Part shown: positions 4,882 to 21,418 of the stretch, piece after piece
How positions within the stretch are numbered: position 1 is the stretch's first letter
Layout: each line of letters begins with the position of its first letter
NCBI GenBank assembly: GCA_018262705.1
Contig: JADFDQ010000006.1
Coordinates: 1 to 64,000 of the forward strand
From: Xanthomonas sp.
GTDB taxonomy: Bacteria; Pseudomonadota; Gammaproteobacteria; Xanthomonadales; Xanthomonadaceae
Direction: 5' to 3'
Length of the DNA: 64,000 nucleotides
Translations under genes and position numbers: made by a program
The notes under the pieces: model-generated
What the model saw: only the letters and a program-made list of their open reading frames with translations
The model's database searches: none
Told to the model about the DNA's origin: nothing

Positions 4882-7800
4882 GCCAGCGCATCGCCTTCAT
4901 GGGCCAGCACGTCGGCCACGGCGGCCGCATCTTTGCGCGCGCGCCGGCCGCGCTCGGCGTACCAGGCATCGGGGCGGCGATCCAGCAGGTCGTAGACCAC
5001 CGGAATCACCACCAGCGTCAGCAGCGTGGACACCAGCAGGCCGCCGATCACGGTGATGGCCATCGGGCTGCGTACTTCGGCACCGTCGCCGAAGGCCAGC
5101 GCCAGCGGCAGGAAGCCGAACACCGCGCACAGCGTGGTCATCATGATCGGGCGCAGGCGCGAGCGTGCGCCTTCCACCAGCGCCTCGCGTTTGGCCACGC
5201 CTTCTTCGCGCAGCTGGTTGACCTTGTCGATCAGGATGATCGCGTTCTTCACCACCAGACCGACCAGCAGGATCAGCCCGATGAACACCACCACCGACAC
5301 CGGCGAACGGGTCAGCACCAGCGCTCCGACCGCGCCGACCATGGCCAGCGGGATCGAGAACAGAATCACGAACGGGTGCAGCAGCGATTCGAACTGCGAG
5401 GCCATCACCAGATAGACCATGAACACCGCCAGCGCGAAGGCGAACAGCAATGAACGCAGTGATTCCGCAAGTTCCTGACCTTGCCCGCCGATCTGCATGC
5501 CGATGTCCACGCCGAGCGGGTTTTGCGCAACCAGCGCTCCCACCTCGCGCACCGCGCCGCCGAGATCGATCCCGCGCAGGTTGGCGGAAATCACCGCAAC
5601 CCGGCGATGGTCGACCCGATGAATCTCGCTGGGTCCGGAGGTGGCGACCACCCGTGCCACCGATGCGAGCGTGATCGGCGCGCCCTTGCCGGGATTGACG
5701 ATCAGGCGGCGGATGTCTTCGACCGTGGCGCGATCGGATTCGCGCACGCGCACCAGCACGTCGATCTTGCGATCGCGGAAGCTGTAGCGCGTGGCCACTT
5801 CGCCGGCAACCTTCTTGGTGACGGCATCGGCGATCTGGCGGGTGGTCAGGCCCAGCGCCGCGGCGCGGTCGGGGTCGAACAGGATCTGGATCTCTGGAAA
5901 GCCCTGCTCCACCGTCGATTTCACGTCGGCATAGTGGGCATTGCCGCGCAGCATCGCGGCCAGCTTGTTGCCGGCAATTCGGATGGCTTCGAGATCGTTG
6001 CCTTCGACCTCGATTTCCAGCGGCGGCGACAGGCTGAACAGTTCGGGGCGTGCGAAATCGACCTGCACGCCCGGATGGTCGCGCATGGTCGAGCGCAGCG
6101 CCTCGGTCAGCGGGCCTTCGAATTTGTTTTCGGTCATCACCACGTCGAGCTTGCCGATGTTCTCGCCGCTCTCGGTGGGGCTGGCATCGAGCCGGGTGCC
6201 GGTGCCGGACACGCCGTACAGCACGCGCGCGCCGGTATCGCGCTCGTGCGCTGCTTCGACCTGCCGAATCAGGTCGTCGGTGCGCGCCAGCGGCGTGCCC
6301 GGCGGCAGCTTGGCGGTCATCTCGAAGCGGTCCTGCGCCAGCTGCGGGATCAGGTCGGTGCCGAGGAAGGGCAGCACCGCCAGCGTCAGCGCGAAGGCAA
6401 TGCCGGCCACCAGCAGCACCGGCGCCGGACGCGCCAGCGCACGCGGAAGGATCTTCAGATAGCGCGCCTCGGCGCGTCCGTACAGCGCCATTGCGCGATC
6501 GCTCAGGAAGCGCATGATCGGGCCGATCACTGCGGCGGTTCCGCGCCAGACGGTCACGATGGTCAGCACGATGTAGAAGAACCCGTAGCGGAACAGCGCG
6601 CCGATGCCGCGTCCGGCATGCATCGCCGGTTTCTGCCACGGTTGTTGCGCCTGCCAGCGCGGATGCGCCGGCTCTTCGGGAAACCCCATCGGCGCCCTGC
6701 CCTTGAGCGAGCTGAGCATCGGGATCAAGGTGATCGCCACCACCAGCGACACCGCCACCGCGATCGCCACGGTCAGCGCCTGGTCGCGGAACAGCTGCCC
6801 GGCAATTCCCTGCACGAAAACCAGAGGCAGGAACACCGCAATCGTGGTCAGGGTCGAGGCCATCACCGCCATGCTCACCTCGCGGGTGCCGGCAATCGTC
6901 GCATCGAGAACGCCAAGTCCGCGATCGCGCGCCTTGGCGATGGATTCGAGCACTACGATCGAATCATCCACCACAAGGCCCGTGGCCAGGGCGAGACCGC
7001 CCAGCGACATCACGTTCAGGCTCAAATCGAGTCGACCCATGAAGAAAAAGGTGGTGATGATCGACACCGGCAGCGACAGGCCGATCACGAACGTGCTCCA
7101 GCCGTCGCGCAGGAACAGAAAGATAATCAGGATCGACAGCAGTCCGCCGATGACGCCGTCCACCTTCACGTCGTGCACTGCGTTGCGGATGAACACCGAC
7201 TGGTCTTCGACCATGGTCAGTTCGACGTCGCGCGGCAGCTGCGCGCGGATGTCCTCGAGCTTAGCCTGCAGCGCATCGGCGGTGGCCACGGTGTTGGCGT
7301 CGCCTTCCTTGTAGATCGCCAGTTCGACCGCTTCTTGGCCGTTGAGGCGGATGATGGTTTCGCGCTCCTTGTAACTCTGGCGCACGCTGGCGACATCGCC
7401 CAGGCGCAGCGCCTGCCCGCCGGCGCTGGCGGATGTGCCGCCGGACTGCTGCGAAAGCGCGGCCATCACGCTGGCGTTGCCGCTGGCCGCGGCCACCCGC
7501 ATCGCCTGCTGGGCGCCGCTGTTGTCGGCCGCTGCCGCGCGCGTGGTCAGCAGCATGTTGCGGATCGCATCGACGCTGGCGAACTGATTGACCGTCCTTA
7601 CCAGATAGCGCTGCGAACCTTCCTCGAGGCGACCGCCGGAGATATTGACGTTCTCCTGCTGCAGCCGCGAGATCACGTTGTCGATGGTCAAGCCGAGCTG
7701 GGCCAGCCTGCCCTGATCGATATCGACCTGCACCTCGTCTTCGAGGCCGCCGCCGACCTTGACCGCCGCCACCCCGGCCACCGGCTCCAAGCGGCGCTTG

Positions 7801-8348
7801 AGGTCTTCGTCGGCATAGCGGCGAATTTCCACCAATCGCCGCAATTCGTCGGCAGCGCTGCCGCCCTGTTTGGTCGACAGCGCCAGTCGCATGATCGGCT
7901 GGGTCGAGGGATTGAAGCGCAGCAGCACCGGCGGCTTGGCGTCGAGCGGAAACTGCAGCGACTCCATCTTGTCGCGCACGTCGAGGCTGGCCTGCTCCAT
8001 GTCGGTGCCCCAGGCGAACTCAAGCACGACGTCGCTCTGGCCGGTGCGCGAAATGGATTTCAGCCGGCGCAGCCCCTTGACCACGCCGAGCGCTTCTTCC
8101 GCCGGCTGCGAAACCAGTGTTTCGACTTCGGCCGGCGCCGCGCCCGGATAGTCGGTGCGCACGGTCAGCGTGGGATAGCTCAGATCCGGCAGCAGGTTGA
8201 CCTTGAGCCCGCCCAGCGCGATCAGCCCGAACAGCACCAAGGTGACTGTCATCATCGCCACCGTCACCCGCCGGCGGGTGGCGAATTCGACCAGGCTGAA
8301 GCCGCGCGATGGCGCGGCCAGAGGATCGTGCGCTTCGTTCGGCGTCAT
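4878..8348 (-). CDS. RND efflux transporter permease (AcrB superfamily), first permease of the operon
   Basis: A 1156-residue RND permease, longer than the usual 1030-1050. The extra length comes from an N-terminal extension, a low-complexity Ala/Ser/Gln insertion in the first periplasmic loop (about residues 265-305), and an enlarged segment between the two membrane halves. The canonical proton relay is present: VDD at D461-D462 in TM4 and K1034 in TM10 (VKNAIIL). It overlaps the adaptor gene by 4 bp upstream and the other permease gene by 4 bp downstream. Two permeases with one adaptor recall MdtABC, where unlike permeases form one trimer. That a heterotrimer forms here is inference. Confidence 0.93.
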   Translation of the reverse strand: MTPNEAHDPLAAPSRGFSLVEFATRRRVTVAMMTVTLVLFGLIALGGLKVNLLPDLSYPTLTVRTDYPGAAPAEVETLVSQPAEEALGVVKGLRRLKSISRTGQSDVVLEFAWGTDMEQASLDVRDKMESLQFPLDAKPPVLLRFNPSTQPIMRLALSTKQGGSAADELRRLVEIRRYADEDLKRRLEPVAGVAAVKVGGGLEDEVQVDIDQGRLAQLGLTIDNVISRLQQENVNISGGRLEEGSQRYLVRTVNQFASVDAIRNMLLTTRAAAADNSGAQQAMRVAAASGNASVMAALSQQSGGTSASAGGQALRLGDVASVRQSYKERETIIRLNGQEAVELAIYKEGDANTVATADALQAKLEDIRAQLPRDVELTMVEDQSVFIRNAVHDVKVDGVIGGLLSILIIFLFLRDGWSTFVIGLSLPVSIITTFFFMGRLDLSLNVMSLGGLALATGLVVDDSIVVLESIAKARDRGLGVLDATIAGTREVSMAVMASTLTTIAVFLPLVFVQGIAGQLFRDQALTVAIAVAVSLVVAITLIPMLSSLKGRAPMGFPEEPAHPRWQAQQPWQKPAMHAGRGIGALFRYGFFYIVLTIVTVWRGTAAVIGPIMRFLSDRAMALYGRAEARYLKILPRALARPAPVLLVAGIAFALTLAVLPFLGTDLIPQLAQDRFEMTAKLPPGTPLARTDDLIRQVEAAHERDTGARVLYGVSGTGTRLDASPTESGENIGKLDVVMTENKFEGPLTEALRSTMRDHPGVQVDFARPELFSLSPPLEIEVEGNDLEAIRIAGNKLAAMLRGNAHYADVKSTVEQGFPEIQILFDPDRAAALGLTTRQIADAVTKKVAGEVATRYSFRDRKIDVLVRVRESDRATVEDIRRLIVNPGKGAPITLASVARVVATSGPSEIHRVDHRRVAVISANLRGIDLGGAVREVGALVAQNPLGVDIGMQIGGQGQELAESLRSLLFAFALAVFMVYLVMASQFESLLHPFVILFSIPLAMVGAVGALVLTRSPVSVVVFIGLILLVGLVVKNAIILIDKVNQLREEGVAKREALVEGARSRLRPIMMTTLCAVFGFLPLALAFGDGAEVRSPMAITVIGGLLVSTLLTLVVIPVVYDLLDRRPDAWYAERGRRARKDAAAVADVLAHEGDALA

Positions 8349-9472
8349 CGTGCGTCCTGCGCCGAACCTGCGCTGGCGGGCGTCGCCGCACGCGGCGCCG
8401 GCGCGGAATCAAGCACCTTGACCGCGCTGCCGTCGCGCAGCGCCGCCTTGCCGGCGACCACCACCCGATCGGCGTCCTTCAAGCCGGAACGCACTTCTAC
8501 CCACGGGCCGTCGTCATAGCCCAGCTGCAGCGTCGTGCGCACCGCCTTGCCGCCGCGAACCACGAACACCGCCGGATCGCCTTCGTCGTCGAGCAGGGCT
8601 TCGCGCGGGATCACCCGCGCGTCGGCTCGCTGGTCGTAGCGGATCCGGATGCGACCGAACATGCCTGGCTGCAGCGCGCCATCGCCATCGAAAGCGACGA
8701 TCACGCGGAACGTGCCGCTGCCGGCGTCAACCACCGGCGCCACCCGATCCACCTTGCCCGTGAACGTCCGCCCGGGCAGCGCGTCGATGCTCAGATCGAC
8801 CGGCTGGCCGGCCTTGAGGGTTTCGATTTCGCGCTCGGGCACGTTCAAGGTCGCTTCGAGACGCGAGGTGTCGACGATGGTGAAAATCGGCGAGTTGATC
8901 TGCACGAAATTGCCGGGCTTGATGTCGCGGGTGGCGACTACGCCGGAAATCGGCGCGGTGACGTTGCCGTAGGACAGTTCGAGCTGCGCCATGCGTAGCG
9001 AATCGCGCGCGTTGGCCAGATCGAAGCGCAGCTGATCCACGTCGTTGGCGCTGACCATCTTCTGCTCGGCCAGTTGCACCGCACGCCGATAGTTCGCTTC
9101 CAGCTTGCTGACCTGCGCCGACGCTTGCGCGGCTTGCAGGGTGGCGCGGTCGCGGTCGATCCGCACCAGCGTCTGACCGACGTTGACGTGCTGGCCGATA
9201 TCGACCAGCACCTGCAGCGCAATGCCCGAGGTCTTGGCGACGACCTGCGCTTCGCCGCGCGCTTCCAGCGCCGCTGTGCCGCCGTAGCTGGCTGCGATCG
9301 AACGTCGCGACACCGGCGCGACTTCGACCGGCACCGCTTCGGGGGCCGCAGCCTCTTTGCCGGTATCGCCGGAACCACCCGATTTCATCTTGCAGCCGCC
9401 CAGCCCCAGAGCCAACGCCAGCCCCAGCAGGGCGAGGAACGGCCAGCCGCGCGCAAAGTCCTTCTCGTGCAT
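8345..9472 (-). CDS. RND efflux periplasmic adaptor (membrane fusion protein), lipoprotein
   Basis: A 375-residue adaptor that would bridge the RND permeases to an outer-membrane channel. After a short charged N-terminus there is a hydrophobic segment ending in a lipobox (LGLGGC), so it should be anchored to the inner-membrane outer leaflet. The body shows the expected order: beta-barrel/lipoyl half-motif (SGIALQVLVDIGQHVNVGQ), an alpha-helical hairpin around residues 110-170, the second lipoyl half (VTAPISGVVATRDIKPG), then beta-barrel and membrane-proximal domains. I placed the start at the ATG at 9472 so that the lipoprotein signal is N-terminal; an in-frame ATG at 9520 would prepend 16 residues. 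First gene of the operon. Confidence 0.9.
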   Translation of the reverse strand: MHEKDFARGWPFLALLGLALALGLGGCKMKSGGSGDTGKEAAAPEAVPVEVAPVSRRSIAASYGGTAALEARGEAQVVAKTSGIALQVLVDIGQHVNVGQTLVRIDRDRATLQAAQASAQVSKLEANYRRAVQLAEQKMVSANDVDQLRFDLANARDSLRMAQLELSYGNVTAPISGVVATRDIKPGNFVQINSPIFTIVDTSRLEATLNVPEREIETLKAGQPVDLSIDALPGRTFTGKVDRVAPVVDAGSGTFRVIVAFDGDGALQPGMFGRIRIRYDQRADARVIPREALLDDEGDPAVFVVRGGKAVRTTLQLGYDDGPWVEVRSGLKDADRVVVAGKAALRDGSAVKVLDSAPAPRAATPASAGSAQDAR

Positions 9473-14172: not shown

Positions 14173-15972
14173 TTAACGCGATGGCATCGCCAAGTTCTCA
14201 GCCGCCAGCGGCTTGCCTATACGCGGCACGGTGGCGATGACCGCATCGGCCGGAAGCGCGCCCTTGCCGTCCAGATACGCATCCACGCGATCCAGCGCTT
14301 CGTACACATAGGGCAGCAGCGGCAGATAAACCGCCGCCAGGTGTGGCAGCGCGAGGAAAGCGTCGAAGTGCTGGGTGTTTTTCACTTGCCAATAGCGCAC
14401 GTCTCGACCCGCCTCCCGGCTCATCGCCACATACGGCAGACTGGAAAACGCCTGCGGCACCAGCCCGTCGTCGGTGCCGTGGATCACCACCACCGGCAGC
14501 CCGGCGCGCGGCGGCGCGGCGCGGGTTTCTTCGACGCCCTTGCGCACGCGGGCCCCGGCTTCGGAATCGTCGGTCCACAGCGCGCGCAGACAGCGCATGC
14601 CGCTGATGCCCAGATCGACCTGCGGGTTCGGATCCATGATCACCACGCCGTTGCCGGGCGGAATGCCGGCGGCGTCCGACCACCACGCAGCGCGCTCTTC
14701 CGGCGTTGCGTCGCGTGCGACCGGCGCTACCGTCACCGGGCCCATCGCCGAATACCAGTAATCGCAAGGATGCGCATTGTGCGGATAGCGTCCGTAGGCC
14801 GACGCATAGCTCACGCCAATTGCGCGCCACAGGTCGAAGGCGACCGCGATCGAACCGGCGCGCAGCGCGGCGTCGGTCCAGCCCGAAGCGTGCAGCGCGT
14901 CCAGCGCCTCCTGCTGGCGCGCTTCCGCCGTCTGCCCTTCCAATGCACCCACCCGCCCCAGTTCTTCGCAGCGTGAATCGCTGATCGGCAACGAGGGAAT
15001 GCCGACTCTTGGCAGGGCGCATGGCATCAGCAGCGCCGCCTCGGTGGTGTAGTCGTACAGGCTGCGCGCGCCGTGGCCGCGTGCGTAAATATTCGGCTCG
15101 CCGGCCACCACCGCGTCCAGCCACGGCTCGCCGTCCTCGGCCGCGCGCAACACCGCGCCACCGCCATTGGAAATGCCCACGGCAATGACGCGGGTGTTTT
15201 CGAAGGTGAACGGTGCGGCTTGCGGCAACTGTGCGTTCAAGGTTTCGATTGCGAACTGCGCGGCTTGCTTGACGTGCCGGCCCCAGTCGGCTTCCGGGTT
15301 GTCCTGGGAATGCGCGTGTTTGTAAGCCACGCCGCGGCCGGTCGCCGGCTCGGGCATGAACGCAAGCCCTGCATCGGGTTTGGCCACCTGCCCGGCCGCG
15401 TCGAAACCCAGTCCGGCATCGACGTCGAAATAATCGGATCCGGTGCCCTTGTCGGTGTAGACCACCGCGCAGCCGCGCGGCAGTCCCCACGCGCCGGCCA
15501 CGGCAATCGCGCCATACACGCCGCGCGAGCCGGACGAGGGCGCGACGATTAGGCAGCGCTTCGTGCGATCGAAATGGTCGGGCAGTTGCAGCAGGACGCG
15601 GTGCGGTTGCTTCGCGCCAGGCAGGGTCGCAAACGCGCTGAACTCGCGCCCCGGCACATTGGCAACGCTGCCGTACAGCTCGCCATAGCCGCCGCCCGGC
15701 GCCAGATCGGCGATCCCACGCCAGTTGCTCCACAGCGCGCGCCGACGCAGTTCCTCGGGCGTGGGATGCGCCGGATCCGCAAAAGCAGGCGCAACCGCAG
15801 ATTGCAGACCAGCCAGACCCAAGCCTGCCGTCAACAGATCGTCCTGTCCGCGGTGCTCCGTCGTGCGCTGCTGGGTGAACATGGCGGTGGTTCCTCCTTG
15901 TGCTGAAAAACCGATGACGCTGCCCAGGAGCAGAACGGAAGCCATCAAGGCGCTGTGTCGAAACGATTTCAT
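14173..15972 (-). CDS. D-(-)-3-hydroxybutyrate oligomer hydrolase
   Basis: A 599-residue hydrolase of the 3HBOH family (Pfam 3HBOH as I recall it), which cleaves dimers and oligomers released from PHB into 3-hydroxybutyrate. A signal peptide covers residues 1-24 (MKSFRHSALMASVLLLGSV), so this form should be exported. The serine-hydrolase box is GISNGGG; further family segments include YTDKGTGSDYFDV and VVVIHGTDDGLVP, the latter carrying the likely catalytic Asp, and a late His in NTQHFDAF. The start at 15972 is set by the signal peptide and an AAGGTAAGG site. It lies divergent from bdhA and next to phaCE, which fits a PHB-degradation role. Confidence 0.9.
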   Translation of the reverse strand: MKSFRHSALMASVLLLGSVIGFSAQGGTTAMFTQQRTTEHRGQDDLLTAGLGLAGLQSAVAPAFADPAHPTPEELRRRALWSNWRGIADLAPGGGYGELYGSVANVPGREFSAFATLPGAKQPHRVLLQLPDHFDRTKRCLIVAPSSGSRGVYGAIAVAGAWGLPRGCAVVYTDKGTGSDYFDVDAGLGFDAAGQVAKPDAGLAFMPEPATGRGVAYKHAHSQDNPEADWGRHVKQAAQFAIETLNAQLPQAAPFTFENTRVIAVGISNGGGAVLRAAEDGEPWLDAVVAGEPNIYARGHGARSLYDYTTEAALLMPCALPRVGIPSLPISDSRCEELGRVGALEGQTAEARQQEALDALHASGWTDAALRAGSIAVAFDLWRAIGVSYASAYGRYPHNAHPCDYWYSAMGPVTVAPVARDATPEERAAWWSDAAGIPPGNGVVIMDPNPQVDLGISGMRCLRALWTDDSEAGARVRKGVEETRAAPPRAGLPVVVIHGTDDGLVPQAFSSLPYVAMSREAGRDVRYWQVKNTQHFDAFLALPHLAAVYLPLLPYVYEALDRVDAYLDGKGALPADAVIATVPRIGKPLAAENLAMPSR

Positions 15973-16084
15973 GAGCGTGACCTTACCTTCTAGAGCACGC
16001 CGCTGCGTCGTACCTTCGTACCAAGGGCCAGCTGCGCGGTTCCTGCTAGCGTAGTCGATGAAAACGTATCGGGACGTACGCAGC

Positions 16085-16894
16085 ATGACAACAGACGGCT
16101 TTCTGCGGGGACGCCGCGCGCTGGTGACCGGCAGCACCTCCGGCATCGGACTGGCCATCGCCTGCCGGCTCGCCGCGGCGGGCGCACAGGTGGCCATTCA
16201 CGGGCTGGGCGCGACCGAACAGATCGCTGCCGCAGTCACGGCGGTCGAGGCGGCGGGCGCAACGCCGCCTCATTTCGACGGCGATCTGCGCGATCCGGAC
16301 GCCATTGAAAACCTGATGTCGGCTGTTTCCGACTGGTCGCAGGGCGGCGTCGACATCCTCGTCAACAACGCCGGCATTCAGCACACGGCGGTGCTGGCAG
16401 ACATGCCGGTGGAGAAATGGGATGCGATCCTCGCAGTCAACTTGTCCTCTGCGTTCCATACCATGCGCCACGCCCTGCCCGCCATGGCCGCACGCGGCTT
16501 TGGTCGGGTGATCAATATCGCCTCGGTGCACGGGCTGGTGGCTTCGAAGGAAAAAGCGCCGTATGTGGCCAGCAAGTTCGGGCTGGTCGGAATGAGCAAG
16601 GTGGCGGCGCTCGAATACGCCGCGCAGGGCAGCCGTGACTCCGGCGGCGTCACCATCAATTGCATCTGCCCGGGCTGGGTGGAAACGCCGCTGATCGAAC
16701 CGCAGATCGACGCCCACCGCGGCGGCGGCAGTCGCGACGATGGCGTGCGCGCACTGCTCTCGGAAAAACAGCCGAGCCTGAGGATGTCGCTGGCCGACGA
16801 GATCGCCGCGCTGGCGGTGTTCCTGTGCCGCCGCGAAGCGCACAACCTGACCGGATCGGCAATTCCGGTGGACGGCGGCTGGAGCGCGCAGTGA
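16085..16894 (+). CDS. bdhA: 3-hydroxybutyrate dehydrogenase (short-chain dehydrogenase)
   Basis: A 269-residue NAD-dependent SDR oxidising (R)-3-hydroxybutyrate to acetoacetate. The Rossmann motif TGSTSGIGLAIA is at the N-terminus, NNAG follows at about residues 95-98, and the catalytic Ser/Tyr/Lys are in IASVHGLVAS and YVASKFG. The segment SVHGLVASKEKAPYVASK is characteristic of bacterial 3-HB dehydrogenases. I use the ATG at 16085; 16058 is an upstream alternative. Its position opposite the oligomer hydrolase gene and near phaCE supports the substrate. Confidence 0.92.
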   Translation: MTTDGFLRGRRALVTGSTSGIGLAIACRLAAAGAQVAIHGLGATEQIAAAVTAVEAAGATPPHFDGDLRDPDAIENLMSAVSDWSQGGVDILVNNAGIQHTAVLADMPVEKWDAILAVNLSSAFHTMRHALPAMAARGFGRVINIASVHGLVASKEKAPYVASKFGLVGMSKVAALEYAAQGSRDSGGVTINCICPGWVETPLIEPQIDAHRGGGSRDDGVRALLSEKQPSLRMSLADEIAALAVFLCRREAHNLTGSAIPVDGGWSAQ

Positions 16895-17840: not shown

Positions 17841-17930
17841 GGAGAGATGGCCGAGTGGTTTAAGGCACCGGTCTTGAAAACCGGCGAAGGCTCAAACCTT
17901 CCGTGGGTTCGAATCCCACTCTCTCCGCCA
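17841..17930 (+). tRNA. tRNA-Ser (anticodon UGA)
   Basis: A 90-nt class II tRNA with a complete cloverleaf. The acceptor stem pairs GGAGAG with CTCTCC, the anticodon loop is CTTGAAA (anticodon TGA), a long variable arm follows (GGCTCAAACC region), the T-arm loop is TTCGAAT, and CCA is encoded. Reads UCA and, by wobble, other UCN codons. It is preceded by the partial copy at 17720-17775. Confidence 0.96.
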
Positions 17931-17994: not shown

Positions 17995-20679
17995 TCAGGC
18001 AACTGCCTCGGCCTCCATCGGCTCGAAACGCCCCTGGAAGAAGCGCAGGTCTTTCGGTTCGTAGGTGAAGCGCAGGCCGTGGATCGACTCGCGGCGCTGC
18101 CACAGGCGGATGATGCCGTTGGCCACTTCGCGCAGGTGGTCGTCGCTGTACACGCGACGCGGCAGGGTCAGCCGCACCAGCTCCAGCGCCGGATGGTGGT
18201 TGCTGCCGTCGGGATCGCGGCCGCTGGACACGTTGCCGCGTTCCATCGTGCGCACGCCGGTTTCGATGTAGATCTCGCTGGACAGGCGCTGCGCCGGATA
18301 GTCGTCCTGATCGACGTGCGGCAGGAAGCGGCGCGCATCGACGAACACCGCATGGGTGCCGGTCGGCTCAACCACCGGCACGCCAGCCTCACGCAGCCAG
18401 CCGGCCAGTCGCTGCGCCTGCTCGACGCGGGTGCGGATATAGCGATCGTCCACCATCTCGCGCACGCCCTGCGCCATCGCCGCCAGATCGCCGGCCGGCA
18501 GACCGCCGTCGCGCACGCCGCCCTCGTAGATGCGCAATTTGGCCTCGGACTTGCGCGCCCACTCGGCGTTGTCCTTGAAGGTCAGCAGGCCGCCGATGTT
18601 GATCAGGAAATCCTTCTTGCCGGAGACGGTGGCTCCGTCACCGTAAAGCATCATCTCGCGCAGGATGTCCTTGACCCTGGTGTCGCGGTAGCGCGGATCG
18701 AACTTCTGGATCATGTAGGCGTTTTCGACCGCGCGGGTGGCGTCGAACATCACCGCGATGCCGTGTTTGCGGGTGTAGGCGTACACCTCTCGCAGATTGT
18801 CCATCGACACCGGCTGGCCGCCGGCGAGATTCACCGACAGCTCGAACGAGATATAGGCGATCTGGTCGGCGCCGTGCTGCTGCACCAGCGCATCGACCTT
18901 GGCGAGATCGATATTGCCCTTCCAGCGAAACGGCGAAGTCGAATCGTGGGCTTCATCGACGATGACATCGGCGAACACGCCGCCGGCATATTCCTGATGC
19001 ACCTTGGTGGTGGTGAAATACATGTTGCCGGGCACGATCTGGCCGGGTTTGATCATCACCTCGGACAGGATCTGTTCGGCGGCGCGGCCCTGATGGGTCG
19101 GCAGCACGTGCGCGTAGCCGTAGGTGTCGTGGATCGCTTCGGCAAAGTCCAGATAGGCGCTGCTGGTGGCCGGTGTCGGCAACGCCGCATCGAATGCGGC
19201 CCACTGCACGGTGGACATGGCGGTGGTGCCGGAATCGGTCAACAGGTCGATCGCCACGTCGGCAGAGCGCAGCAGGAAGGTGTTCCAGCCGGACTCGCGC
19301 ATCGCTTTCTCGCGCTGTTCGCGGGTGGTGACGGCGATCGGTTCGATGGTGTGGATCAGCCACGGCTCGCAGTCGTACTCCACCACATCCAGATCCGCAA
19401 ACACCGTATCGAAGCGCAGCGCGTCCTGCCATTCATCGGCATGCTGCAGGTTCGGCACCGGCACCCGTTCGCGCTGCCGGTACAGCGCAATCACCGCATC
19501 GGCGACCTGATCGAGCTGTCGGTTGGTCATGGCCAGACGCGGAATCTGCAGCGGCAGCAGCGCATCGTGACCCACCCGCCCCTGCGCCAGCGCGCGCACG
19601 CCGGCGGCCTGGTACAGCGCGCAGGCCAGCGCGTGCTCCGGATACTCGGGCACGTGCGGCAGGAACGCGTCGGCCCGCAGATAAGCGCCATCGCAGCCGC
19701 GCTCGATCGGCACCCCGGCCTCGCGCAGCCGGGCGGTGAAACGCTCGGTCTGCTGCATCGCCCACTGCACGGTCGGCTCATCGCACATTTCGCCGAGCCC
19801 GCGCGCCAGCACCTCCATCGTGCGGCCGGCCATGCCGCCGTAGGTGTGCAGGCCTTCGAACACCACGATTTCGTTGATGAAGTGCTCGTGGTCGGACGGA
19901 TTGTCGGTGGCAAGGAAGCCGCCGGTGTTGGCGCGCGCGTCCTGGGCGCCATCCATCAGGATCACATGGGCGGTCTTGGACAGCAGCTTCACCAGTTCGG
20001 CGATGGTGCGATCGCCCATGCCAGGTTCATAGCGCTGGATGTACCAGGCGTTTTCCACCACGCGCGAGACGTCGAGCACCAGCCGCAGTCCGTGACGGTC
20101 GGCCACCTCGCGCGCCGCGCGCAGGTTGGCGAGGCTGATCGGATGCTGCCCGTCGGCGAAAGCCTGGGCGCCGACGAAGGGCGGCCGCTGCTCGCGGATG
20201 TCCGCGTCCAGCCGATCAAGATCGATATTGCCGGTAAAGATCTTCGCTGCGTGATCGCGCATGTCGCGCAGTTCGATCCCGCGCGGCGCGTGCAGATCCA
20301 CCCGACCGCGCGCATTGCTGGGCAGACGCTGGCCGCGCTTTGCGAACACGTGCAGCAGGATCTTCACCGAACCCAGCGAATTGTGGGTCGGGCAGACGTA
20401 GCTGTGGCCCAGCACGCGGTTGATCGTCGCGCACAGGGTTTCGAAATTGCGCGCACCGGCGTAGGCCTCGTCGCCGATCAGCTGGCCGGCCAGCTGCTCC
20501 TGCGTCATCGCGCCGCTGCCGTAGGACACCATGTCGAAGCTGACCTGCTGCGGGGTCAGGTTGAAGACGTTGAAATGCGCGGCGGCGAGGTTGTGCTTGC
20601 GTTCGTCGAGCGTGGGGAATGCGATTGGGCGAACGGTCTTGACCTTGTGCGGCTCGTGGACGGGAACGGGGGTGGCCAT
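17995..20679 (-). CDS. Double-length beta-eliminating lyase: tyrosine phenol-lyase-like C-terminal half fused to a degenerate N-terminal copy
   Basis: An 894-residue protein about twice the length of tryptophanase or tyrosine phenol-lyase (456-471). Two homologous PLP-fold halves can be aligned, roughly residues 20-430 and 431-894. The C-terminal half is complete: PTHQGRAAEQ, NLAGGQPVSM, FDATRAVENAY, and the PLP lysine K689 in SGKKDFLINIGG. At the positions that separate the two enzymes it looks like tyrosine phenol-lyase: FTTT (T556; tryptophanases have FDTT) and MERG (R814; E. coli tryptophanase has VEIG). The N-terminal half keeps the fold landmarks (LDVSRVVENAW, ANTGGFLATDN) but has MDGAQ where the lysine should be, so it should be catalytically dead. 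Divergent from an Lrp-type regulator. Confidence 0.85.
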   Translation of the reverse strand: MATPVPVHEPHKVKTVRPIAFPTLDERKHNLAAAHFNVFNLTPQQVSFDMVSYGSGAMTQEQLAGQLIGDEAYAGARNFETLCATINRVLGHSYVCPTHNSLGSVKILLHVFAKRGQRLPSNARGRVDLHAPRGIELRDMRDHAAKIFTGNIDLDRLDADIREQRPPFVGAQAFADGQHPISLANLRAAREVADRHGLRLVLDVSRVVENAWYIQRYEPGMGDRTIAELVKLLSKTAHVILMDGAQDARANTGGFLATDNPSDHEHFINEIVVFEGLHTYGGMAGRTMEVLARGLGEMCDEPTVQWAMQQTERFTARLREAGVPIERGCDGAYLRADAFLPHVPEYPEHALACALYQAAGVRALAQGRVGHDALLPLQIPRLAMTNRQLDQVADAVIALYRQRERVPVPNLQHADEWQDALRFDTVFADLDVVEYDCEPWLIHTIEPIAVTTREQREKAMRESGWNTFLLRSADVAIDLLTDSGTTAMSTVQWAAFDAALPTPATSSAYLDFAEAIHDTYGYAHVLPTHQGRAAEQILSEVMIKPGQIVPGNMYFTTTKVHQEYAGGVFADVIVDEAHDSTSPFRWKGNIDLAKVDALVQQHGADQIAYISFELSVNLAGGQPVSMDNLREVYAYTRKHGIAVMFDATRAVENAYMIQKFDPRYRDTRVKDILREMMLYGDGATVSGKKDFLINIGGLLTFKDNAEWARKSEAKLRIYEGGVRDGGLPAGDLAAMAQGVREMVDDRYIRTRVEQAQRLAGWLREAGVPVVEPTGTHAVFVDARRFLPHVDQDDYPAQRLSSEIYIETGVRTMERGNVSSGRDPDGSNHHPALELVRLTLPRRVYSDDHLREVANGIIRLWQRRESIHGLRFTYEPKDLRFFQGRFEPMEAEAVA

Positions 20680-20923: not shown

Positions 20924-21418
20924 ATGTCCGACAAACTCCTCGATGCCACCGACTGGAAGCTGCTGGAACTGCTGCAGGAAGACGGCCGCGCCAGCTTTGC
21001 CGCGCTCGGGCGTGCGGTCGGCATGTCCACGCCTGCGGTGGCCGAGCGCGTTCGCCAGCTGGAAGCGCATGGCGTCATCCGCGGTTACCGCGTCGAAATC
21101 GATCTCGCCAAAGTCGGTCGCCCGATCCTGGCCATCCTGCGCATGAGCATCGTCGGCGACGTGCTGGGCCGGATCACCGAGGCTGTGCGCAAAATTCCGG
21201 AGGTGCTGGAATGCCACCGCGGCACCGGCGCCGATTCGTTCATCGCCAAAGTTGCCGTCGGCAGCGTGGAAGATCTGGAACGACTGATCGACAAACTCGC
21301 GCCCTACGGCACCACTTCGACCGCGATCGTGCTGTCCACGCCGGTCGCGGAACGCACCATCACCGCGCCCACCGCCGCGCCGCGCCCGCCGGCGCACGAC
21401 CATCGCAGGCGGCGCTGA
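20924..21418 (+). CDS. Lrp/AsnC-family transcriptional regulator
   Basis: A 164-residue regulator. The N-terminal winged helix-turn-helix matches the family (LLDATDWKLLELLQEDGRASF, then LGRAVGMSTPAVAERVRQLE), and the C-terminal RAM/effector domain follows (ILAILRMSIVGD, ECHRGTGADSFIAKVAV). The last 25 residues are an Ala/Pro/His/Arg-rich tail beyond the usual end. Lrp-type proteins sense amino acids and often control a divergent amino-acid enzyme. The neighbour here is an aromatic amino-acid lyase homologue, so Tyr or Trp sensing is a fair inference. Confidence 0.92.
   Translation: MSDKLLDATDWKLLELLQEDGRASFAALGRAVGMSTPAVAERVRQLEAHGVIRGYRVEIDLAKVGRPILAILRMSIVGDVLGRITEAVRKIPEVLECHRGTGADSFIAKVAVGSVEDLERLIDKLAPYGTTSTAIVLSTPVAERTITAPTAAPRPPAHDHRRRR

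Follow-up and report, generated by a model that had tools for sequence, protein, structure and literature searches.

A double-length tyrosine phenol-lyase-like protein from Xanthomonas sp. with reciprocal conservation of active-site residues in its two halves

Related enzymes and the architecture of the fused protein

Tyrosine phenol-lyase (TPL; EC 4.1.99.2), known from C. freundii and E. herbicola and represented by the models TIGR02618 and PF01212, is a homotetramer that depends on pyridoxal 5′-phosphate (PLP) and in which each identical subunit both gives and receives the tyrosines Y71 and Y291. Tryptophanase (tryptophan indole-lyase, TnaA) belongs to the same family and has the same trans tyrosines, which by alignment are Y74 and Y307 in the E. 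coli enzyme. The Tyr74 and Tyr307 hydroxyls of one TnaA subunit are reported to form bonds to the PLP phosphate of its neighbour in the catalytic dimer (PMC2770544), and in Proteus tryptophan indole-lyase the substrate-reaching Tyr-72* is described as belonging to the other chain (PMC11301627). For TPL, the C-gamma of the leaving phenol is reported to be protonated by Tyr-71 (PMC9262865), and the activity of the Y71F variant on tyrosine to be not detectable (PMC5054688). Here, a TPL-like protein is described in which the two roles appear to be divided, one half of the chain giving and the other receiving. It is encoded within a 64,000-nucleotide stretch (the window; positions 1 to 64,000 of contig JADFDQ010000006.1, assembly GCA_018262705.1) of Xanthomonas sp., the assembly of which amounts to 2.49 Mb in 24 contigs. 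A first-pass annotation of the window had proposed that a dead N-terminal twin may contribute to the neighbouring active site or sense a ligand, and had called the natural enzyme a "tetramer of dimers", which should read dimer of dimers (PMC2770544). The fused protein and TPL have in common the fold, the PLP site and the phenol-pocket residues T124, M379, R381 and F448.

Asymmetric pairs of PLP folds are already known. The glycine decarboxylase P-protein GcvP, a single chain with two homologous PLP-fold halves that carries PLP in its C-half only, may be the closest architectural precedent, although it belongs to another family and catalyses another reaction. In serine palmitoyltransferase, the subunits SPT1 and SPT2 (LCB1/LCB2) pair as two related PLP-fold subunits with a presumed single site whose PLP lysine comes from SPT2 only (PMC6148460); this eukaryotic enzyme differs from the fusion in being encoded by two genes and in its reaction. 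Beta_elim_lyase-type PLP domains also occur inside the larger chains of nonribosomal peptide synthetases and polyketide synthases (PMC3870968; 9cen), where another residue stands in the place of TPL Tyr71 and R381 is absent; the passages on these domains describe no tandem of a live and a dead twin (PMC3870968). None of the open-access papers listed for the TPL family reports such a live/dead fusion, in agreement with the annotation, which did not take it for an established form. What appears to be new here is the subunit logic in this family, alongside TPL-like chemistry.

The reading frame opens with an ATG at 20679 on the minus strand, ends with a stop at 17995-17997 and has no internal stop; the features discussed below are collected in Table 1. 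PF01212 matches the frame twice, at 18121-19248 (217 bits) and at 19579-20535 (103.9 bits), against a cut-off of 27, so that the tandem of two TPL/tryptophanase-type folds named in the annotation stands. The tryptophanase subfamily model NF009709 scores 829.8 bits for the whole protein and 303.6 for the N-half alone, above its cut-off of 285. In structural alignments of the predicted model, identity to TPLs of known structure is 50-52% for the C-half (residues 434-888), and the N-half is about 32% identical to its structural match; by sequence the N-half matches TPL with E = 3.9e-60. Against the TPL equivalog model TIGR02618 (cut-off 720.7 bits) the C-half reaches 611.7 and the N-half 254.7 bits, each below the cut-off, and the whole-protein score of 861.2 bits is a sum over both halves. 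Since the summed score passes the cut-off and neither half does, automated annotation may report a plain TPL. Two tryptophanase models, TIGR02617 (611.2 bits against a cut-off of 825.8) and NF053783 (652.7 against 750), stay below their cut-offs even for the whole protein with both halves summed.

Table 1. Features of the fused gene and its upstream region (positions in the window; residue numbers of the fused protein unless marked TPL)
Feature	Position	Strand	Remark
Fused TPL-like gene	17995..20679	-	894 amino acids; stop codon included
N-half, residues 1-424	19408..20679	-	TPL-type fold lacking the PLP lysine; presumed to donate the trans residues
Junction between halves, residues 425-433	19381..19407	-	Short; bounds approximate
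C-half, residues 434-894	17998..19380	-	Substrate pocket and PLP site
N-half motif GDEAYAG, residues 69-75	20455..20475	-	Y73 = TPL Y71; TPL G67, D68, Y71, G73 gone from C-halves
N-half motif EGLHTYGGMAGRTME, residues 275-289	19813..19857	-	Y280 = TPL Y291; TPL Y291, G296, R297, E300 gone from C-halves
K689, PLP Schiff-base lysine (TPL K257)	18613..18615	-	K in 83/83 C-halves
Q246 replacing PLP lysine, N-half	19942..19944	-	Q in 80/85 rows, K in 0
Lrp/AsnC-family regulator	20924..21418	+	Divergent; control of the fused gene inferred from position only

Distribution of active-site residues between the halves

A scan of genome_contigs yielded 315 stretches coding for relatives among 331 pattern matches, and the best 80 of these were analysed. 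The counts below come from an alignment in which 85 fused rows, representing 82 distinct genes with 3 duplicates, were entered as separate halves together with C. freundii TPL and 17 single-domain rows; 83 C-halves were long enough to be counted. Positions are given in TPL numbering, in which T49, Y71, K257, Y291, R381, R404 and F448 fall at the sites given by the TPL literature.

The two halves have kept different parts of the active site. At 18 listed own-subunit positions of TPL, the assumed roles of which the literature confirms in part, the C-halves keep 1474 of the 1474 cells that they reach and the N-halves 161 of 1530. A gap is taken as a loss in these counts, and every N-half has gaps at positions 448 and 449. 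The donor tyrosines Y71 and Y291 show the reverse, being present in 169 of 170 cells in the N-halves and in none of 166 in the C-halves, and both occur in 44 of 45 single-domain proteins. A scan of all columns with 90% or more conservation across 19 single-domain rows, which represent 16 distinct genes, gives the same picture: 38 columns are kept in the C-halves (at least 95%) and lost in the N-halves (at most 20%), and the opposite holds for eight columns, which make up two motifs, G67 D68 Y71 G73 and Y291 G296 R297 E300.

The PLP lysine and the specificity residues lie in the C-half. By alignment K689, T556 and R814 correspond to TPL K257, T124 and R381, as the annotation had it, and F880 corresponds to F448; the specificity residues T124, R381 and F448 are invariant in all C-halves that reach them, so that the C-half has T/R/F where TnaA-type proteins have D, I and H. 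The lysine-less N-half was likewise read correctly, Q246 of its MDGAQ segment standing at K257. The annotation had allowed for an N-half lysine at an alternative site; at the aligned position, to which the count is confined, 80 of the 85 rows have Q, two H, two R, one L and none K.

No single TPL unit of the fusion combines Y71, Y291 and K257, that is donor and acceptor residues: the C-half has the lysine only and the N-half the tyrosines only. In sequence this is the pattern expected of a putative asymmetric fold-type-I pseudo-heterodimer, with the lysine in one half and the partner residues in the other. Because the equivalents of Tyr71 and Tyr291 act in trans in published structures, the trans donors would have been kept by the N-half and the site that receives them by the C-half. 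Pairing two C-halves would leave out both tyrosines and pairing two N-halves the PLP lysine, so that only an N:C pair could be complete. The supply of part of the neighbouring site by the dead twin, as first proposed, is as a reading of the sequence strongly supported by the reciprocal losses together with the published trans tyrosines.

Proposed mechanism and alternative explanations

From these alignment patterns, the protein is very probably a single-chain asymmetric pseudo-heterodimer of TPL type, in which a two-subunit catalytic unit is contained in one chain, with the PLP and substrate pocket in the C-half and Tyr73 and Tyr280 contributed by the N-half. PLP would be bound through K689, and the cofactor, carboxylate and phenol pocket would be held in the C-half; the N-half would retain the fold without a lysine for the PLP Schiff base. 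Y73 of the N-half would serve as general acid, protonating the carbon of the leaving phenol, while Y280 would bond the PLP phosphate, the C-half having no copy of either. The expected stoichiometry is one working site per chain in place of two, and the likely reaction would be the release of phenol, pyruvate and ammonia from L-tyrosine or from a closely similar 4-hydroxyphenyl compound, or the same reaction run backwards. The structural prediction weakly hints that the productive N:C pair may form between two chains (a homodimer, or pseudo-tetramer) rather than within one.

Several observations weigh against this proposal. The trans site is not visibly built in the predicted monomer, and the loops at residues 71-80 and 271-290 are of low confidence and gain nothing from the C-half. 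The G, D, R and E residues kept around the donor tyrosines could have a part in packing as well as in catalysis. The N-half cells that are kept at own-site positions fall mostly at two PLP-binding positions, D214 (71 of 85) and R217 (74 of 85), so the N-pocket is not wholly erased. Finally, the C-half alone stays below the TIGR02618 cut-off, and tyrosine as substrate is therefore not certified; that the protein works like TPL is accordingly better supported than that it is a TPL.

The pocket of the N-half could also have been put to another use. There are 15 N-half columns, conserved at 95% or more, with residues that are nearly absent there in C-halves and single-domain proteins, and N100, S205 and D243 occur in 85 of 85 N-halves at the PLP-site positions Q98, T216 and S254 of TPL. 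We take S254 to be the phosphate-binding serine, and an aspartate in its place should repel PLP. Along with the remaining D214 and R217, and with purifying selection on the N-half, these columns speak for a mainly allosteric or ligand-sensing N-half, the former PLP pocket of which would bind another ligand and control the C-half. The ratio of nonsynonymous to synonymous substitution rates against nine relatives is 0.118-0.347 for the N-half and 0.117-0.227 for the C-half, which places both halves under purifying selection and argues that the N-half is not decaying. We consider sensing as the main role unlikely, as it leaves unexplained why Y71 and Y291 are lost from every C-half and retained in the N-half, and as the new residues may merely replace hydrogen bonds once made by PLP; a sensor role would be compatible with the pseudo-heterodimer as an addition to it. 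A combination, needing two chains with swapped halves, where the N-half of one completes the C-half of the other, and an emptied N-pocket serving as a fixed regulatory site for a ligand other than PLP, is likewise unlikely.

The same asymmetric lyase design could instead serve a physiological substrate other than tyrosine, such as 3,4-dihydroxyphenylalanine (DOPA), an S-substituted cysteine or another beta-substituted aromatic amino acid. The shortfall of the C-half against the TPL equivalog model speaks for this, as do the gene neighbours, which vary between lineages, and L277 of the N-half, which stands at TPL M288, a residue that presumably reaches the neighbour's pocket. Nonetheless, T124, M379, R381, F448 and F449 are retained by every C-half that reaches them, and both halves fall within the TPL clade. 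In an IQ-TREE analysis of 89 rows, which took in 45 single-domain proteins and 22 fusions drawn from the 76 that exceed 860 amino acids, the N-halves and the C-halves are each monophyletic (100 and 100) and both lie within the TPL clade (100); FastTree, with all 76 fusions, again places the halves within the TPL clade, with support of 1.0 for the N clade and 0.46 for the C clade. The branching differs, as FastTree joins N and C and IQ-TREE sets N outside TPL and C (support 53), and the long N branch carries a risk of attraction to deep branches. On balance a different substrate seems improbable.

That the N-half is a relic that merely stabilises the C-half and takes no catalytic part is very unlikely. 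The loss of the PLP lysine speaks for it, as do the first 70 residues of the N-half, which are well predicted only alongside the C-half and so suggest a structural contact. Against it, the donor motifs are the most conserved segments of the N-half, with 17 of 23 columns invariant against 28 of 397 elsewhere (the motif bounds having been drawn after the alignment was seen). Within EGLHTYGGMAGRTME, residues 275-283 do not vary across 65 sequences.

Distribution, genomic context and significance

Counting the best 80 loci, the window's own and one more, 82 distinct genes in numerous independent assemblies show the fusion, and a sequencing or assembly artefact that joined two genes, for which no supporting point was found, can be dismissed. 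The search for two-domain homologues called for in the annotation thus returned matches to both halves in 80 of the best 80 loci (of 315 relatives), some of them broken by a contig end or frame break, and in four other genomes of the same genus. Best-segment identity across these 80 loci is 48-89%, and they span at least six phyla. Their titles name Acidobacteriota (20, Thermoanaerobaculia and Holophagae included), Bacteroidota (17), delta-type groups (12: Myxococcota/Myxococcales, Desulfobulbaceae, Polyangiaceae and "Deltaproteobacteria"), Gemmatimonadota (10), Planctomycetota (9), Lysobacterales (6: Thermomonas and Dokdonella) and Eisenbacteria (1), with five given merely as "bacterium" or "proteobacterium". 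The nearest relatives of the gene among the best 80 of 315 are Thermomonas records (86-89%).

Within its own genus the fusion is found in 5 of 25 genomes, its own counted, and in three of the other four it is the same gene as at L009, L017 and L073; in G018, a further genome of the genus, a single-domain gene shows TPL-type residues. Among 369 sampled genomes of the class no N-half-type match lies outside the own genome, and no split form or stand-alone N-half was recognised there; nine genomes have matches, the own included, and those beyond it are all single-domain-sized frames of 33-39% identity. In a TIGR02618 search of 398 genomes of the phylum, 18 have matches, the sole double-length frame is that of the own genome, and no split form or stand-alone N-half was recognised. 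Plasmids gave no split form or stand-alone N-half either, their 82 records all being below 60% identity and the 10 listed at 31-35%. As the gene is patchy in its own genus, it may have come by transfer, possibly together with its regulator.

The divergent Lrp/AsnC gene recurs upstream in 19 of the 85 rows (16 without duplicates), all of which are from Lysobacterales or of Acidobacteriota type, and its identity to the gene in the window is 66-100%; among these 19, L014 is cut by a contig end and in L037 the gene lies about 1 kb away. Distant Lrp/AsnC genes (24-27%) occur at two Bacteroidota loci. Since at least 600 upstream bases are present in 76 of the 85 rows, most fusions are without such a gene. 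Other neighbours, among the 40 largest clusters listed, many of which are shadow frames, are lineage-bound only. In Bacteroidota, a subunit of pyruvate/2-oxoacid ferredoxin oxidoreductase type follows the fused gene at six loci (L069-L072, L076 and L088), and an aminotransferase class I/II gene lies near it at six (L074-L079), with one protein of each kind checked against Pfam. In the window, a tRNA-Ser (TGA) gene at 17841-17930 ends 64 bases from the 3′ end of the fused gene; tRNA sites often take up transferred DNA. Further along, the frame at 14173-16197 (minus strand) matches PF10605, a 3-hydroxybutyrate (3HB)-oligomer hydrolase family, with 423.9 bits.

Single-domain relatives are found alongside the fusion. 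The same contig carries, beyond the window, a separate TnaA-type gene (G000:C21:67845-69194) that is 42% identical to the C-half and has Y, D, C, K, Y, I and H at positions 71, 124, 216, 257, 291, 381 and 448. A single-domain TPL paralogue, L143 (G737:C7:60605-61954; L149 8597-9967, minus strand), combines K257 and R381 with D, A and S at the positions of Y71, T124 and Y291, and by its residues looks C-half-like or degenerate; its genome has additional TPL-type and TnaA-type genes, and no TPL-like partner is present among the frames listed around it. In G038 (L150), TnaA-type and TPL-type genes lie next to each other on one strand (5853-7229 and 7133-8611, first-start frames), each with both tyrosines and the lysine. 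This pair was rejected as a split form, as both genes retain Y71 and Y291, and is possibly a picture of the tandem before any fusion.

A double-length TPL-type chain is thus carried by many environmental bacteria. As a natural example of complementary degeneration it would be unusually clear-cut: the symmetric site of a homodimer would have been resolved into a donor and an acceptor half and kept so across many phyla. It makes testable what is gained from halving the active sites of an oligomer, be it stability, asymmetric regulation or a new binding site. TPL is used in the production of L-DOPA (PMC7508748), and fixed donor and acceptor halves in one chain would let each be changed independently.
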